From: Alkalimarinus alittae | Lineage (GTDB): Bacteria > Pseudomonadota > Gammaproteobacteria > Pseudomonadales > Oleiphilaceae | DNA length: 64,000 nucleotides | Reading direction: 5' to 3' | Assembly: GCF_026016465.1 (NCBI RefSeq) | Contig: NZ_CP100390.1 | Location: 3,825,001 to 3,889,000, forward strand | Shown here: positions 8,841-39,530 of the stretch, in pieces | Layout: the number at the start of each line of letters is the position of its first letter | Numbering within the stretch: the stretch's first letter is position 1 | The notes under the pieces: model-generated | What the model was told of the DNA's origin: nothing | The model's input: the letters and a program-made list of their open reading frames with translations, nothing else | Databases searched by the model: none | Position numbers and translations under genes: made by a program

Positions 8841-10264
<1,424 letters not shown>

Positions 10265-10278
10265 TAACTAGGCAAGCT

Positions 10279-10390
10279 GTAGCCTTGATGCAAGGAGGTA
10301 CGACTGGAATCACGGAATGGTACGGTGTAACCTCGGTCTTAACGAGAGTCTAAGCCCTTCCTTGATTCCGCTTCGCTGCATCACGGCTAC
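10279..10390. repeat. REP-like palindromic element, copy 1
   Basis: Lies between the convergent ends of ntrC and mshQ. The termini GTAGCCTTGATGCA (left) and TGCATCACGGCTAC (right) are inverted repeats with one mismatch. Internal blocks TTGATTCCGCTTCGCTGCATCA and GGAATCA recur in inverted form in copy 2 at 17462-17553. The GTAGCC...GATG...AGCGGAATC pattern resembles REP sequences mobilised by RAYT transposases in pseudomonads and relatives. It may also terminate both convergent transcripts. Confidence 0.7.
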
Positions 10391-10393
10391 AGG

Positions 10394-13300
10394 TTAGTTG
10401 CTTAGTTCTCGCCAATAAATAATCCGATCGTGTCCGCGGTAGCGTCCGAAAGTGGCGGTCGACATTGGGTTGTCATTATCGCCCATCGTGGGTGAAGCTG
10501 AGGTATCACACACCTGGCTTTCATCTAACCCATCACCATTCCAATCAAATTTTAACCAGTTCTGAACATCTATGCACAGTTCTGCAAAACCGTCTTTGCC
10601 GTCTCCTGGGGCTGATAGTGAGATTTGATCTGACAATGCTGCAAGACCTGATACAGCCACGCCACTTCCTGAAGCCGACGTCGTGCCACTATTATTTAAG
10701 CTAGGTGTAACTCGCATATCTGGCGCATTAAAGGTTGTACAGTTATCTGCCGTATTAACGACAAAGCGAGTGCCATCATAAAACTCTGCTGACATCGGTA
10801 TTTTAAGTGGATTCGTTTCAGGGCCAAATGCGTTCTCTAACACCCAACGTCCGTATTTAAGATATTCGTTAACCGTCGTATTCATTGGCGCGCCAGCTGT
10901 TGCCGCATCAGGATCCCCCGAGAAACCTATATTCGCTAACTCAGCACCTCCTTCAACATCATCACTATCTATTAGCTTTATATTTAGTCTCACATCTGCA
11001 TCAAAAGGCGAGACAAGCGCACCCGATATAGGTCTTTGATAGTTAAACTCATCGGAGAGTAGCGGATGCATCGTCAGTGTAATCAAGCCATTTGCATTCA
11101 ATATAGAGCCATAGCTCTGACTGGCTGTGGGGGCCGAGAAAAGCGCTGCGCCGGCTACATTATCGGTATAACAAAAACCAGAATCGGCACCGGTACAGCT
11201 ACTGCCTTGATTAAGGCTAGTGCCTAGTTTCCAGAAGTCCCCTTCATAATTCTGCGTCAGGTCGCCAGTATAGCTTAGCGCTTTGATAGTCACTTCTGGT
11301 GGAGTTAAATAACCAAAGGGCTGCCCCATATAGGTAAACGATGAATTACATGACAAATTAAAGTCAGCCGAAGTCATGCTTACATCAAAGCTAGCGGGAT
11401 AAAATCGACCTATATTAGCTGACTCGACAGAGGCAACGGCAACCGGTACACCAAAATAAGCAGGTGGCGTTGCGGTTATGGTAAATACACCGACCTCACC
11501 TATTTGTTGGTCGCTTATTTTCTCTTCCCCCCCGGATGGAGCCCCATCAAAAATAATTTCGTTTACTGCAGGTGCGGCAGGTGTTCCCCCTGAGGGCGCT
11601 TTAAGGTCAGACGTCAGGGCAACCGTACCTCGGTAGCTTTTTGCGACCAACTCAGGCGTACCAATACAAAGCGCTTTGGAGGTCATCGCAAAAGGCTCAT
11701 TCGCCCTAACAAATTTACTACACGTGGCTAGATTAGAAGCGCATGCTGCGTCAGCAGAGTCCACTTCAATGATAACTTTCTCAGGACTCACAATAAACGA
11801 GCCTAACGCCCCTGTCAGTGTGCTTGTGATTTCAGATACTGTACCGTCATATGGAAAATCATCATGCTCAACGTTAACATCTATTACTTCGCCTACATCC
11901 TCATACTCAACAGATATAGTGGCAATACCTGCACTGAAATCTACAGTCATATTACTACTAGAAGGTTTCGTGACGGCAACAGCAGAGCCATTCAACAGTA
12001 TGCGTTTTGGCAAGCCCGTATTTTTTACACCCAACGTTAATGGGTCGATATTTACATCTGCCCATGCCTTTAGTGACTTTGTGCCGTCAAACCCTGTCAA
12101 CGTGTTGCATGCGCCCCCCAAGCTCGTATCCTGCCCTATCGCTGTAATCGTAAACGCTTTAGAGTTTCCACAAACAAAGTCAAAATTCACAGGCCGATCT
12201 ACTCTGAAGCCAAACGTTCTAAAGTCTGTGCCGTTAGTCGCCTCTGTTGATACGCTAAGAGAGGTGTCTTCAGCAGTCACTTTAAGCGAGGGATATTCGT
12301 TTTTATGAAACAAATAAACATCGACCTCACCATTTTCTGACCCCGTGAGCGCAATATCGGTAATACTGGAACCACCTGAGCTCGCTAAATAAAATTCACT
12401 TTGACTGTTCTGATTGCTTAATAAATCAATCGTGCCGGCATAATCGTCTTTCACGGTAACACCATCGTCACACATGGCTTTTATATTGATGGGAGCTCGG
12501 GCGTTGGGGCAGGCTAGGCCGTAAGCCGGCTGGGTGATGGCGAAGCTACCTAGCGTACAGCTTGTAGGTGGACATACTCGTGTCTCATTGAATAACGTTG
12601 TGACATCGGTATCTGATAGCACGCTATCAAAGATTTTTAACTCATCAAGACTTCCTTCAAAATATTCAGGCGTACCTCCTGTATCCTCTATTCGTCCTAT
12701 ACTGGAGAAAGAGTTGCCTATAATACCGGTGGCCAATGTGCCACTTTTATCAAGAACACCATCGATATATATTTTATAAGCCCCTGTTGCAGCATCTCTG
12801 GTGAGCACAACATGATGGTAGGCATTATCATTAACCCTTTGTGTAGATTTAGTAGTGAAGTCGTTTGCGACTGAAAGCCCTATACGGCCTGAAGCGTCTA
12901 ACCAGCCCCAGAATATATCATCAGATCCACCTGCCTGCTCAATACCGGTAACACCTGGAGCTCTCCAACCTATATCATCCCCTGTCTGAGTTGTTTTGAT
13001 CCAGAAACTCATGGAGGACGTGCCGCTCAATGAGGTGTAGATGTCATTTGTCTCAATATAGTCATTCACACCATCAAAATCTCCCGCTCGGCATAAATGC
13101 CCCGCGTTAGTCGTGGTTAAACTATTGATCGCGGTGGCATTATTGTTGTTTCCTGAACTATCGATTACTTCGCCTGTAGTGCCATTCCAGCTAGTTTCAT
13201 CCATTCTAAACTCAAGAACTGATGGTGGTAGCGGTGGGGTGGCGGGTATAGCACAAGTCGTAAGGTTTGCAGTGGGTATGTTTTCCCAAGACCCACCGTC

Positions 13301-31026: not shown

Positions 31027-31482
31027 ATGAATTTCATACGAACAAATCACGCTGTTCAATGTGTCAGAACTCGTCAAGTAGATGGCCGCGAAGTGTCTGA
31101 AGTTGTTGTCAGTTTCGATGAGCAACTTAACACTATCGCGCCCCATGTCTCAGCCTTGCTGTCAACAGAGGAAGTTAATCAGCTGGGCGCATGGCTAGAA
31201 GAGCGAGCGCGCCTGCAGCATGAACTGAAAGACAAGCCTCTAGGTATAACTGTTTTAGAGGCTTTACCGGGTTTATTACAAGAGGCAACCGATGCTGTAC
31301 GCCTTTTGGACACCCTGGATAGCTCTCTGCACAATCAGATAGAAGATAGCCTGCGCCTTTTTCGCTCCACACTTGATGACGCACTTCATACAAACCATAC
31401 GAATGAACAAAATGAGTTTGATTCTATGCAAGACGAAGAAGTGCTAAAAGAGCAGCTAACCTCAATTAAAAGTAAAGTATAG
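31027..31482 (+). CDS. Unrecognised 151-residue protein within the ectoine operon
   Basis: I do not recognise this family. The protein is acidic, has no signal peptide or membrane segment, and is mostly predicted helix in its second half, with repeated heptad-like leucines (LEALPGLLQEATDAVRLLDT, LEERARLQHELKDKP). An AAGGAAC ribosome site lies 5-7 nt before ATG 31027. It sits in the usual ectB-ectC gap (45 bp after ectB, 43 bp before ectC), so it is co-transcribed. The first 60 residues hold a VVVSFDEQLNTIAPHVSALL segment of possible beta/alpha character. It could be an accessory or regulatory partner of ectoine enzymes, but nothing in the sequence says which. Confidence 0.85.
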   Translation: MNFIRTNHAVQCVRTRQVDGREVSEVVVSFDEQLNTIAPHVSALLSTEEVNQLGAWLEERARLQHELKDKPLGITVLEALPGLLQEATDAVRLLDTLDSSLHNQIEDSLRLFRSTLDDALHTNHTNEQNEFDSMQDEEVLKEQLTSIKSKV

Positions 31483-34282: not shown

Positions 34283-35182
34283 TTAAACCAATCTAAAATC
34301 TTTAAAGAAAGAACGGCAGTGCTCTACTTCTGCTGCCGTCATCCACTTCTCGTTGCTATAAATAATCTCGCTACCGATTTTATTCGCCTTGCTACTCCAC
34401 ATCGGATTGTAAGGGAGAACAGTCAACTCGGTAACGTTCTGCTGCTTTAGAAACGTAGCGATCGCTGCTAAGTTTTTATCTGTCGCGGTAATACCCGGGA
34501 TGAGTGGAATTCGAGGCAAAATAGGCCCCCCTCCCTCAAGGTAGCGCTGATGCAACTGACCAAAATTCTCGAGTATTTGCTTATTTGATTTACCACAGTG
34601 CTTGATATGCGCTTGCTCATCAAACAGCTTTATATCCATATAAATTTGGTCAATATAGGGTAAAATTTTCTGTTCAAAGTGCGCCATCGAAAAATAACCC
34701 GATGTTTCTACCAAGCAATGAATTTTTCTTTCCTTTAGTTTCCTCAACAACTGCTCACAAAACGTCGGATACAGCGTAAATTCGCCACCAGAAAGCGTCA
34801 CCCCTCCACCCGATGTTTCGTAAAACACTTGATACCGATCTACCGTAGCAAGCACCTGATCAACCGTATAGTTATCCCCGATTATCGATAAAGCCTCTGA
34901 AGCGCAAACCTCGGTGCATTTGAAGCATGAGGTGCATTTATCATAATCAACGAATAAGGGATTATGTTTATCTAAGGCATCTTCAGGACATGCTTTAACA
35001 CACTCACCGATATCGACACATTTAGTTTTATCAAATGAGAGTTGAGCGCGCCGGCTTTGGGATTCCGGGTTGTGACACCACACACAAGCCAAAGGGCAAC
35101 CCTTGAAGAACACCACGGTTCTTATTCCCGGGCCATCATCCAGAGAATTGCCTTTTATTTCACAGAGTACTGCCTCTTCCAT
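34283..35182 (-). CDS. Glycyl-radical enzyme activating protein (radical SAM)
   Basis: Iron-sulphur enzyme that uses S-adenosylmethionine to abstract H from the glycine of its partner enzyme under anaerobic conditions. The 299 residues carry the radical-SAM motif CxxxCxxC in FFKGCPLACVWCHNPES and the GGE motif in TLSGGEFTLY. A ferredoxin-like insert with eight cysteines (CVDIGECVKAC, CTSCFKCTEVC) indicates two extra 4Fe-4S clusters, as in activases for non-PFL enzymes. It lies 80 bp downstream of the broken enzyme gene and is itself intact. Confidence 0.95.
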   Translation of the reverse strand: MEEAVLCEIKGNSLDDGPGIRTVVFFKGCPLACVWCHNPESQSRRAQLSFDKTKCVDIGECVKACPEDALDKHNPLFVDYDKCTSCFKCTEVCASEALSIIGDNYTVDQVLATVDRYQVFYETSGGGVTLSGGEFTLYPTFCEQLLRKLKERKIHCLVETSGYFSMAHFEQKILPYIDQIYMDIKLFDEQAHIKHCGKSNKQILENFGQLHQRYLEGGGPILPRIPLIPGITATDKNLAAIATFLKQQNVTELTVLPYNPMWSSKANKIGSEIIYSNEKWMTAAEVEHCRSFFKDFRLV

Positions 35183-35262: not shown

Positions 35263-38200
35263 CTAAAGGCCAAACGATGAACGCTCAATAAGCTCCATCT
35301 GCATATCCCGATTAAGCGTAACGAAGTAAGCGTTATACCCCGAAATACGCACCAGCAGGTTGCGATAGTTTTCTGGGTGAATCATGGCGTCTTTAAGCGT
35401 GTCTGCACTCACCACATTGAGCTGCATTTGCATCCCCCCGAGTTTGAAATAACTACGGGTGTAAGACTTCATAATATCAACGGTTCGATCTCGGCTATCT
35501 TCAGCACTGGGGACCACCTTGACGTTGAAGGCAATATTGTTACTCATATTCTTTGGGTCTAGCCGCGCAACATCGCGAAGGTTATCCAACATGTTATCGG
35601 ACGCCTCCGCTTTGGGTGTTAGCCCCGGCGTCAACGACTTACCGGCACGCTTACCCGAAGGTAATGCGCCACTCAGTGTGCCAAAAATGACATGATTCGA
35701 CATAGACCAAAAACCTGCAGTGTACTTTCCACCTCGATAATTAGTGTGCTTACCATAATGGTCATGCGTAAATTGAGTAATCCGATTAGCCATGGCCACC
35801 GAGTCTTCGTTACCCGAACCAAACAAGGGCACCTTATTATGAATCATTGATAATAGTTCGAGGTCATCGTTAAAATCAGTATCGATGGCGGCTTTAAAAC
35901 GTTTCAGAGTGGCCAATTTCTTATCATAGACGAGGGTTTTAATAGCCATCATAGAGTCAGTGACATCTGCCAACCCAATGCAGGCCGCGCCCGAACTATT
36001 ATATTTTGCCCCACCATGAGTGACGTCTTTCGCTGACTGAATCGTGCCGTCAATAAGGCTAGATAATAAAGGCGTCGGACGAATCGCCTGATGGGCTTTA
36101 CCTAACATATCGTTGTATTCGATCGACTGGCTAATAAGAAAACCAAATTGCTGGGTAAATGCATCAAAGAATGAATCAAAAGATGGAAAATCATCAACGC
36201 CCACCTGCCCCGTCTTGGGGCCAAGGTGCCATTGCATCGTCGGGTGATAGCCATTATTCAACGTCATTTCCAGCGCGCCGACCATATTCATCATTTGAAA
36301 ATTGGTGTGGCCCATATGCTTGCCGCAGAGTGTCGGCTCAACGCAGCCTGTGGCAGCCCAGTCTCTGATATCACTCAGCTCATAATCGTATTGTTCGAGC
36401 GATGCCATCACCGCATCACCGCATCATCGCTGTGTATCGATGGGGTGCCAGCAGTAATCAAGTTAACTTCACATAACCGTTTTAGATAAGTATCTGTATT
36501 CACACCTTCTTTGAATCGCGCGTTAACGTTAGGGTCCCGAATGGTGAGTATTTCCGTTACCTTAAGGAAGATATAGGTCATATCATTAACGGCATCTTCA
36601 CCTTCAGGCGTTATACCACCAAGGGTAATCGCCTGATCAGACGAGCTTCCGCCAAAATACCAGTTAGCAAGGTCGGGCGTAAGAGGTAAATGGTCTGTTG
36701 CTCGCATATAGAGGCAGCTGATCAATTCAATGGCATACTCTATATAGGCTTTACGCTCTTCTTCCGTTTTGAGTTTTGACATATCCGCGTCAAAGTAGGG
36801 CTGTAACCACTGGTCTAGCCTGCCCAGTGAAAGGCCTGCATTGGTGTTTTCCATATGCAGCCCAACCCAAGATATCCATATCGCATTGACGGCTTCATCT
36901 AATGTGCGGGCAGGTTGATCTGCAATGTGGTCGCAAATTTGGGCTAATCGCTCTAATTCAGAGCGGCGTTTGGGGTTAGCTTCAGCCTGTGCATCTAATG
37001 CGGCTTGCTGAGACAAGTTCTTTGAATAGGCGCTTAAGCCTTCCAAACACAACACCATTCCCGCAAGCGTTGCTCGCTGGTTTTGGTCTAGATCTGACTG
37101 CTCAAGTTGCTGTTTAACTTCTGAAATAATTCCGCTTGTTCCCTGTTTAAGTATTTTGGGGAAGTCGGGGATGGTGTGAGAAATGGCAACGGTCTTCCAC
37201 AAGAAGTAGACCGCAAAGCGCTCGTCAATCAACTGGCTCATGGGCGCATTATAATAATCCCTCACCCACTCTCTGAACGTACGTTTTGACCAATAAGGAA
37301 ACACTTCATGATGCAATATATGGACGGTTTCTTCTGATACATCGTATGAGTTAAGCGGACGATGAGGGACGGTAAGCAACTCGCTCCAGATCATCATGCC
37401 GTGGCTATCGGGGTATACCACTACGCCAATTTATTTGGTCGTAGTCGTACCCGCAATCAGGTCGTTTTTTCGAATGATGGGCTTTTTGTTTTGTAATAAG
37501 TATTTAAAAATATGGCCCTGTCGAAGCTCAGGAATCCACTTATGCCCTTCTGTATCAGTTTCAAAGCCGTTCTTCTTGCACCAGTCTGTGACTAATTTAG
37601 GGCGCTCCGGGCAGATTTCGGGTTTAACTTCAAAATGGATATCCAGAAATGCTTGAACTCTGGGGAAGTCATTCAAACTATAATCAGATAAGTACGGGTC
37701 TGTCAGATGCTTTACACCCAGGTCAATCTGCTCCCCTTTTAACCGCTCGGCCATTTTAGCAACGACTTCATCACTAACTTTTCCCTTGCCTCCTTCAGCT
37801 ATTTTTTCTGCAACACCTTTTGCATCTAGCTTTTCTTTCGCCATCATTTTCTTTTGCTTGTTAATCAGCAGCAGCGACATAAAAAAGAAAAAGAGGTGTA
37901 AGTAGTTTATATTCCCCTGCGTTTTTAACTCGCTTTTCATAATCATGAAAATTTGTTCAGTGGGGGTCGCGCCGAGTAGCTTTGTAACCGCTTTATCTGA
38001 TTTAAACATTAAGGCGGTATCGCAATCAGCAGGCATTTTATTTAAAACAGTGGCTTTGCCATCTTTAAATTGAATCGCTGTATCCACACTTTTATTTTCT
38101 GTGCAGATGCCCGCTGTAAAGTTAATCCAACCTTGATCACTTTTAAGGTAACCATTCATGCCTGGCCGCCAATTAAAGTTTTTGGCCATCAGAAACAATA

Positions 38201-38303
38201 ATGTTTTTACTAATGCATTCGTGCCATTTACTTTTAAGCCGTCATTTATTTTTAGGCTAATAGCGTCAGCAGCAGTTTTGAGTTGACCTGTTCTTGCAAG
38301 CAT
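35263..38303 (-). pseudogene. SCP2-like domain fused to a glycyl radical enzyme, broken twice
   Basis: Three consecutive open segments (37431-38303, 36408-37421, 35263-36411) make one gene. Residues 1-145 resemble an SCP2 sterol-carrier domain (LMFKSDKAVTKLLGA ... MKSELKTQGNINYLHL). The rest is a PFL-like glycyl radical enzyme: IIRKNDLIAGTTTTK, then the TAA, then GVVVYPDSHG. The active-site motif is GCVEP (Cys codon 36343-36345), and the radical glycine is in RISGYNAYFVTL (Gly codon 35338-35340). Lesions: an in-frame TAA at 37431-37433 and an extra 8-bp unit at 36407-36422 that shifts the frame. Omitting 8 bp and reading the TAA as sense gives 1010 residues. GCVEP is seen in dehydratase- and lyase-type enzymes, but substrate is unknown. 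Confidence 0.88.
36407..36430 (-). repeat. 8-bp tandem repeat in the glycyl radical enzyme gene
   Basis: Plus-strand ATCACCGC ATCACCGC ATCATCGC: two exact copies and a third with one mismatch. The minus strand codes S-D-D-A-V-M in frame only when one copy is absent, so the extra copy causes the frameshift. It lies about 20 codons before the active-site cysteine. Confidence 0.85.
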
Positions 38304-38525: not shown

Positions 38526-39530
38526 TTATTCTGCTTTTTTATTTTTAAGCCGCCATTGGCGAGGTGAGAGTCCGGTCCATTTTTTAAAGTTTCTACAAAA
38601 TACAGAAGCCTCTGAATAACCAAGATTTAATGCGATATCCAGTATGCTTAAACTGCCATAAAGTAACTGTTGTTGCGCTGTCATTGTGCGTGTGACCTGA
38701 AGCAACTGACTGAAGCTTGTATTTTCACTATGCAGCCTTTTTTGTAACACCCTCGGATGCAAGTTAAGCGCGGCACTGACTCTATCAATCGTACACTCAC
38801 CACTCGATAACAAATTACTACAGATATAGCGCACCTGTGCTTGTAGATCTTCTGGATAAATACTTTCTAATAGCTGTATTCTTTTATTGAAATGTTCTTG
38901 CAGCATCTGATCGTTATGTTTGTTCTCTCGATCAAGCCACACACTTGGATAATGAATTCCGTTAAATGTACTGCCTACATTCAAATGCGCGCTATAGCCC
39001 TTCAACGTAGCTATATCTTTCTCTTGAAGATGAGTTTGCATATCCATCTTCAACAGCGGATTGACCTCACCCAAAAGCGCACTGAGCGCGTTGTAAATTT
39101 GCGCCACGCTTAAGAGAATTAACTGCTGTAAACCACTGGCGTTAGTAAAATCGAAGTTTAGATGAATTTCTGCGATGTCGCCTTTAACCTCAAGGGCAAG
39201 ATGTACACCTCTTGCATGTAATCGCATGTGTTGATTAGAAAACTGTATCGACTCCCTTAACGTGGGTTGCTGACTGGTAGAAAGCACCAACTCGCCGATT
39301 GCCATGGCAGTCTGTTTTTCTGCTAGTTTTAGAGAGAATATAGGGTCATCACAAACTTGAGCTGTTAAATCGAGTAACTCAGCGACTTTAACGTAAGAGA
39401 TAAGCGCTTCGGGTTCGCGCAACTGAGCGCTGCTCATGCCTAGCTCTTGCAATATTTTGTGAGGGTTGTAGCCAAGCTGATACACCCGCTTTTCATAACC
39501 TTCGATGGCCCCACTTCTGATCAGATACAT
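38526..39530 (-). CDS. AraC-family transcriptional regulator (OruR-like)
   Basis: 334 residues: an N-terminal AraC-binding-like domain (Arabinose_bd type, about 20-210) and a C-terminal AraC helix-turn-helix pair (about 235-330, VSAALNLHPRVLQKRLHSEN and ILDIALNLGYSEASVFCRNF with the signature FKKWTGLSPRQWR). It precedes the enzyme gene by 222 bp in the same orientation, so it probably controls that gene in response to its substrate (inference). Its gene and product look intact. Confidence 0.9.
   Translation of the reverse strand: MYLIRSGAIEGYEKRVYQLGYNPHKILQELGMSSAQLREPEALISYVKVAELLDLTAQVCDDPIFSLKLAEKQTAMAIGELVLSTSQQPTLRESIQFSNQHMRLHARGVHLALEVKGDIAEIHLNFDFTNASGLQQLILLSVAQIYNALSALLGEVNPLLKMDMQTHLQEKDIATLKGYSAHLNVGSTFNGIHYPSVWLDRENKHNDQMLQEHFNKRIQLLESIYPEDLQAQVRYICSNLLSSGECTIDRVSAALNLHPRVLQKRLHSENTSFSQLLQVTRTMTAQQQLLYGSLSILDIALNLGYSEASVFCRNFKKWTGLSPRQWRLKNKKAE

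Follow-up and report, generated by a model that had tools for sequence, protein, structure and literature searches.

The locus examined here raises the question of whether three adjacent open reading frames in the genome of Alkalimarinus alittae are three small genes or the remains of one, and, if they are one, whether that gene has died, is switched off or was misread. We analyzed a stretch of 64,000 nucleotides of contig NZ_CP100390.1 (hereafter the window, to which all coordinates refer), in which a regulator gene and an activase gene flank three open reading stretches of the minus strand (38303-37431, 37430-36408 and 36411-35263). In the order of transcription (AraC-type regulator, fragments 1, 2 and 3, radical SAM activase), the features are as follows.

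38526 to 39530, minus strand: AraC-family regulator upstream of the enzyme, reading frame intact, with an 89% identical relative in the same-genus genome G002
37431 to 38303, minus strand: fragment 1, with an SCP2-like N-terminal domain and the beginning of the glycyl radical enzyme, stopping at an in-frame TAA
37431 to 37433, minus strand: the in-frame stop TAA, at a column that mostly holds Glu or Asp in orthologues
36408 to 37430, minus strand: fragment 2, the middle of the enzyme (positions 80-409 of the 647 in the PFL-like profile), ending in a TGA past the frameshift
36406 to 36426, minus strand: exact 8-bp tandem duplication that shifts the frame, forming a 21-bp run of period 8
35263 to 36411, minus strand: fragment 3, with the catalytic Cys-Glu loop (GCVEP) and the C-terminal Gly radical domain (RISGY)
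34283 to 35182, minus strand: glycyl radical enzyme activase (radical SAM), reading frame intact (TIGR02494, 287.6 bits, cut-off 174.35)

The reading frames of the window show the three stretches to be a single interrupted gene. Bounded by stops, the frames run from 38315 to 37431 (TAA), from 37430 to 36408 (TGA) and from 36423 to 35263 (TAG); the first two share one frame, which the TAA divides, and the third is shifted at the duplication. Removing one 8-bp unit from the 3041 bp leaves 1011 codons. The PF02901 profile is matched consecutively, by fragment 2 over positions 80-409 and by fragment 3 over 408-647, and the two fragments are therefore successive parts of one protein; PF01228, the C-terminal Gly radical domain, then follows in fragment 3 (84 bits, cut-off 22.2). 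Both catalytic motifs, GCVEP and LLVRISGYNAY, fall in fragment 3. The first-pass annotation had described one gene with two lesions and with its catalytic motifs present, and the coordinates, strand, TAA, 8-bp unit and codon arithmetic that it gave all check out; its correction of three 'genes' to one stands as well, the one being a decayed gene. The locus thus has the Gly radical domain, the PFL-like barrel with its Cys loop (PF02901) and the radical SAM activase (TIGR02494) of a glycyl radical enzyme system, and owing to the in-frame TAA and the frameshift the gene does not encode an uninterrupted enzyme. No other Gly-radical or PFL-like matches occur in the genome, which is a single 4.25-Mb contig rated 99.99% complete.

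Scanning our genome collection for orthologues gave a set of 80 loci, the best 80 of 223 relatives. In 66 of these both ends lie on the contig and the enzyme is encoded by one uninterrupted frame of 988-1094 codons from stop to stop (973-1032 if counted from the chosen Met); another 13 are truncated by the end of a contig, and L092 alone has an interrupting TGA. The search for uninterrupted orthologues of about 1010 residues that the first-pass annotation had suggested is thus answered, and so is its proposed alignment across the junctions: with the window pieces aligned separately, all 66 complete orthologues pass both junctions in frame, relative to which the lesions of the window gene are disabling. 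At the column of the TAA these orthologues carry Glu (38), Asp (16) or another residue (12). The copies in genomes G159 (1015 aa) and G443 (open frame of 1007) are likewise one ORF each. The 8-bp repeat is not unusual by itself, since the window holds two exact 8-bp tandem duplications against a mean of 0.83 in 30 mononucleotide shuffles; it goes beyond chance because the 66 complete orthologues cross both junctions in one frame. Close copies are rare among the window's relatives, with hits in 2 of 163 genomes of its family (its own and G159) and, at E 1e-60, in 2 of 390 genomes of the order sample and 1 of 369 of the class sample, the own genome being counted each time.

The exception among the orthologues, L092, comes from a gammaproteobacterial metagenome-assembled genome and has its in-frame TGA at 1971-1973, where its nearest relative has a Cys codon (TGC). 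Selenocysteine was considered at this position and rejected: the column holds Ser (36), Gly (17), Cys (3) and others in the 66 orthologues, and no stable hairpin follows the codon (z +1.39). Since the column is mostly not Cys and such a hairpin is lacking downstream, the TGA is read as marking another broken copy or an error in the MAG. G159 carries two different enzymes of the SCP2-type family, each with its own activase (L010 and L013, on contigs C71 and C72); the second enzyme is cut by a contig start, and its available sequence does not reach the N-terminal region.

Related genomes show what became of the locus elsewhere. In G002, of the same genus, the frame of the AraC gene passes directly into the final 80 activase codons, a remnant that is 74% identical to the window activase and contains an in-frame TAA, while the enzyme is missing, as are roughly the first 219 residues of the activase. 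This scar corresponds to L115 9053-10278 (contig C1 of G002, at ~577 kb). The best reading is that the gene was lost by a second route, a deletion, in this sister genome. The NG86 dN of the activase remnant is 0.159 (79 codons), at least roughly double the values for AraC (0.069), a neighbouring MFS gene (0.053) and aspartokinase (0.078), with NG86 dS saturated for all genes compared except the MFS gene. Purifying selection acts on AraC in the comparison of G000 with G002 (YN00 dN/dS 0.038, dS 1.66). A glycyl radical enzyme of another kind, 33% identical, is also present in G002. The site is empty in G001, where 120 bp separate the flanking TPR and ssb genes and the cassette is lacking.

The regulator and the activase remnant of G002 occupy a chromosomal place other than that of the window cassette (~577 kb, versus 460 kb for the MFS gene), and the two losses may therefore not stem from one shared insertion; the cassette may have been inserted once and then moved, or have been inserted twice. 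No mobile-element ends were recognised among the repeats of at least 20 nt around the cassette, which fall into four direct families of two copies each and five pairs in inverted orientation; the longest measures 31 nt, at 71% identity. Promoter-like sites numbered 7 against 10.7 expected, and terminator-like sites 7 against 4.8 (sd 2.4). Elsewhere in the window, a 151-aa ORF (31027-31482) with no Pfam match above cut-off lies between the ectoine synthase gene and an aminotransferase gene, which we take to be ectB-like; a similar ORF is found at the equivalent position in G001 (L116 6220-6672).

We conclude that the locus is very probably a pseudogene, recently inactivated, of what was one gene of about 1010 codons for an SCP2-fused glycyl radical enzyme. 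The lesions look real rather than a reading error, because G002 keeps the regulator and the end of the activase without the enzyme and has a stop in the remnant, and because the site in G001 is empty. That the true chromosome carries an intact gene, disguised by an assembly or sequencing error, would fit with two lesions only ~1 kb apart in a gene whose conserved positions are otherwise mostly kept. Such an error is nevertheless unlikely, as one lesion is substitution-like and the other a perfect duplication of 8 bp outside any homopolymer, the assembly is a single and nearly complete contig, and a same-genus genome lost the gene in another way. The perfect adjacent repeat inside the coding region could also be taken as a reversible switch, with slippage turning the gene on and off. 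The run holds barely more than two repeat copies, however, the in-frame TAA, a separate lesion, would silence the gene in both states, and the 66 complete orthologues are all unbroken at the repeat site, so that we consider a switch very unlikely. The first-pass annotation had left recent inactivation, reversibility and mis-sequencing side by side; the first of these is now favoured over the other two, because a same-genus genome lost the gene by deletion and the lesions here are a substitution-like stop and a non-homopolymer duplication.

Two further explanations would leave a working product. Fragment 2 ends in a stop that overlaps an ATG of fragment 3 (TGATG), a GTG lies just past the TAA, and fragment 3 holds both radical residues, all of which would suit a split enzyme whose pieces are made by termination and restart and then assembled. 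Inspection by eye showed no Shine-Dalgarno-like stretch ahead of the GTG restart, and the enzyme is unsplit in the 66 complete orthologues and lost from G002, which makes this arrangement highly improbable. Decoding of the TAA as an amino acid, for which the continuation of the frame past it might speak, is scarcely credible in that it would not account for the frameshift. Recoding was also rejected on the use of TAA as a terminator, which ends 18 of the 25 other window ORFs of at least 250 aa (28 such ORFs minus the three fragments). No tRNA gene of any kind lies within the 64-kb window.

To gauge how recent the inactivation is, we examined positions that are near-invariant, that is, at least 95% conserved, in the 66 orthologues. 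Kept apart, the window pieces miss 7 of 258 such positions. When each intact orthologue was left out in turn, 52 missed fewer than 7, 2 exactly 7 and 12 more than 7 (range 0-31, median 3), which puts the window gene on the high side, though many orthologues have closer relatives in the set than the window copy has. With 7 of 258 positions missed, a value within the range of the orthologues, there looks to have been little decay since the lesions, and apart from these the sequence resembles that of a functional gene. For the activase, the corresponding counts are compatible both with decay and with its absence. The window activase misses 8 of 78 near-invariant positions, as compared to 0-4 in 45 of 46 orthologous activases (the 46 of 52 cluster members that passed a length filter) and 20 in the remaining one, but the counts are 3, 5 and 10 in three activases of the family or order to which the window belongs. 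Residue 58 of the activase (35009-35011), a Cys that is at least 95% conserved in the 46 orthologues, is replaced in the window copy, a loss common to it and the three other activases from its family or order.

The first-pass annotation had also pointed to the intact activase and regulator beside the broken enzyme. Both frames are indeed open, but the argument is weak, since two lesions per 3041 bp would spare the 1905 bp of the neighbouring genes about 29% of the time (Poisson). The activase and AraC genes are probably leftovers, so far unhit; alternatively, their open frames, with AraC under purifying selection, could mean that the locus is still used by something. As for the enzyme itself, no fragment has the whole barrel, and any product should therefore be inactive.

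The decay event is ordinary, and it is the SCP2-fused enzyme family, whose many radical enzymes carry a domain resembling a lipid carrier, that is the interesting part and worth naming. The family is broad: by record titles it spans Thermodesulfobacteriota, Myxococcota, Spirochaetota, Chloroflexota and others, and here it was seen chiefly in metagenome bins whose titles point to sulfate reducers and syntrophs, as well as in Desulfatibacillum alkenivorans. Within 8 kb of the enzyme, the 80 loci, many of them shortened by contig ends, contain an activase in 51 cases, TetR in 38, an epimerase-type dehydrogenase in 14, a short-chain dehydrogenase (SDR) in 14 and a fused epimerase/SDR form in 6. 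The run TetR-enzyme-activase-epimerase-SDR is exact in 5 loci and has one extra gene in 2. Because an SCP2-like fold and an eliminase-type loop are found together with epimerase/SDR neighbours, we infer that the family may act on a lipid-bound, hydroxylated substrate, the carbonyl product of which would then be reduced by the neighbouring dehydrogenases. In G159, the intact SCP2-type enzyme gene of L013 is followed downstream (10172-12197) by genes of the fatty-acid-hydroxylase family (PF04116) and for an acetoacetate-decarboxylase-like protein (PF06314), hinting at lipid metabolism.

In a tree of the C-terminal part, with groups assigned by record titles, the window copy falls within mainly Thermodesulfobacteriota clades (support 84-90, not starred). 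Grouping it with the two G159 sequences and L092, a group named after the tree had been seen, was rejected (p-AU 9e-7), and holding it with the G443 copy was not (p-AU 0.69, the constrained tree scoring better); copies therefore probably entered the Gammaproteobacteria, the wider group of the window, at least twice. A transfer of the window's copy from Desulfobacterales is only partly supported. Taken together, we tentatively propose that the SCP2-fused enzymes may be a so far undescribed subfamily of eliminases with a hydroxylated, lipid-bound substrate, found across several phyla with TetR/AraC control and short-chain dehydrogenases, and that the wider group of the window acquired it on at least two occasions and has a tendency to lose it, as with the broken copy here, the deletion in G002 and the stop in L092. 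With a fresh break in one genome, a deletion in the second and an empty site in the third, these relatives give a clean view of how an acquired anaerobic enzyme may disappear. Among titles and opening lines of abstracts in the open-licence PMC literature, we found no paper on an SCP2-fused glycyl radical enzyme; the passages retrieved from two papers on alkane-activating glycyl radical enzymes (PMC3653055, PMC3151549) do not mention such a family.

How, then, would the intact enzyme have worked? In D. alkenivorans DSM 16219, the intact orthologue and its own activase are encoded within L022 (6185-7099 and 7144-10149). The model of this orthologue (pLDDT 89.9, pTM 0.92) best matches diol and glycerol dehydratases (Foldseek, 5i2g_A, E 1.8e-53; 1r8w_A, TM 0.93 to target), and C642 and E644, like the Cys-Val-Glu loop and RISGY as a whole, are invariant in 48 aligned orthologues. 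This combination of loop and motif is the eliminase/dehydratase pattern. In such enzymes, which are sensitive to oxygen, a radical generated by the activase on the C-terminal Gly is handed on to the Cys of the loop, with the Glu next to it serving as base; the intact window enzyme would probably have worked in the same way. At its N terminus, a model of residues 1-198 of fragment 1 (pLDDT 84.9) has an SCP2-like predicted fold and matches UbiJ-SCP2 (6h6p_A, E 5.7e-6, TM 0.67 to target) and many other SCP2 structures in Foldseek. The 'SCP2' label of the first-pass annotation is thereby supported as a predicted fold and not as a Pfam sequence match, for fragment 1 matches zero families at E 0.001 and orthologue L022 none at 0.01. 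This extra domain hints at the class of substrate, and may have held or fetched a lipid-like one.

Among known systems, the closest are the glycyl radical eliminases and dehydratases (glycerol and 1,2-propanediol dehydratase, choline TMA-lyase, hydroxyproline dehydratase), with which the family shares the barrel fold of the L022 model, the Cys-X-Glu loop, RISGY and an adjacent activase, while differing in sequence (about 28-30% identity in the top L022 matches) and in its extra SCP2-like N-terminal domain. L022 stays under the cut-off of all 11 NCBIfam glycyl radical models listed, the best being PFL2-3 (481.7 bits versus 678.2). The window enzyme has Asn at the position aligned with Asp447 of glycerol dehydratase, which argues against a plain diol dehydratase. 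The alkyl- and benzylsuccinate synthases (MasD, BssA/TutD) belong to the same superfamily, but match fragment 3 more weakly (MasD 9o8u, E 4.3e-34; TutD 4pkc, 2.7e-27) than does glycerol dehydratase (4.1e-60), and the Cys-X-Glu loop is of the eliminase type, unlike theirs. Fragment 1, for its part, resembles in predicted fold the SCP2 domains of UbiJ, eukaryotic SCP2 and the SCP2-like domain of alkylsulfatases, and differs from them in lacking a Pfam SCP2 sequence match and in being fused to a glycyl radical enzyme.
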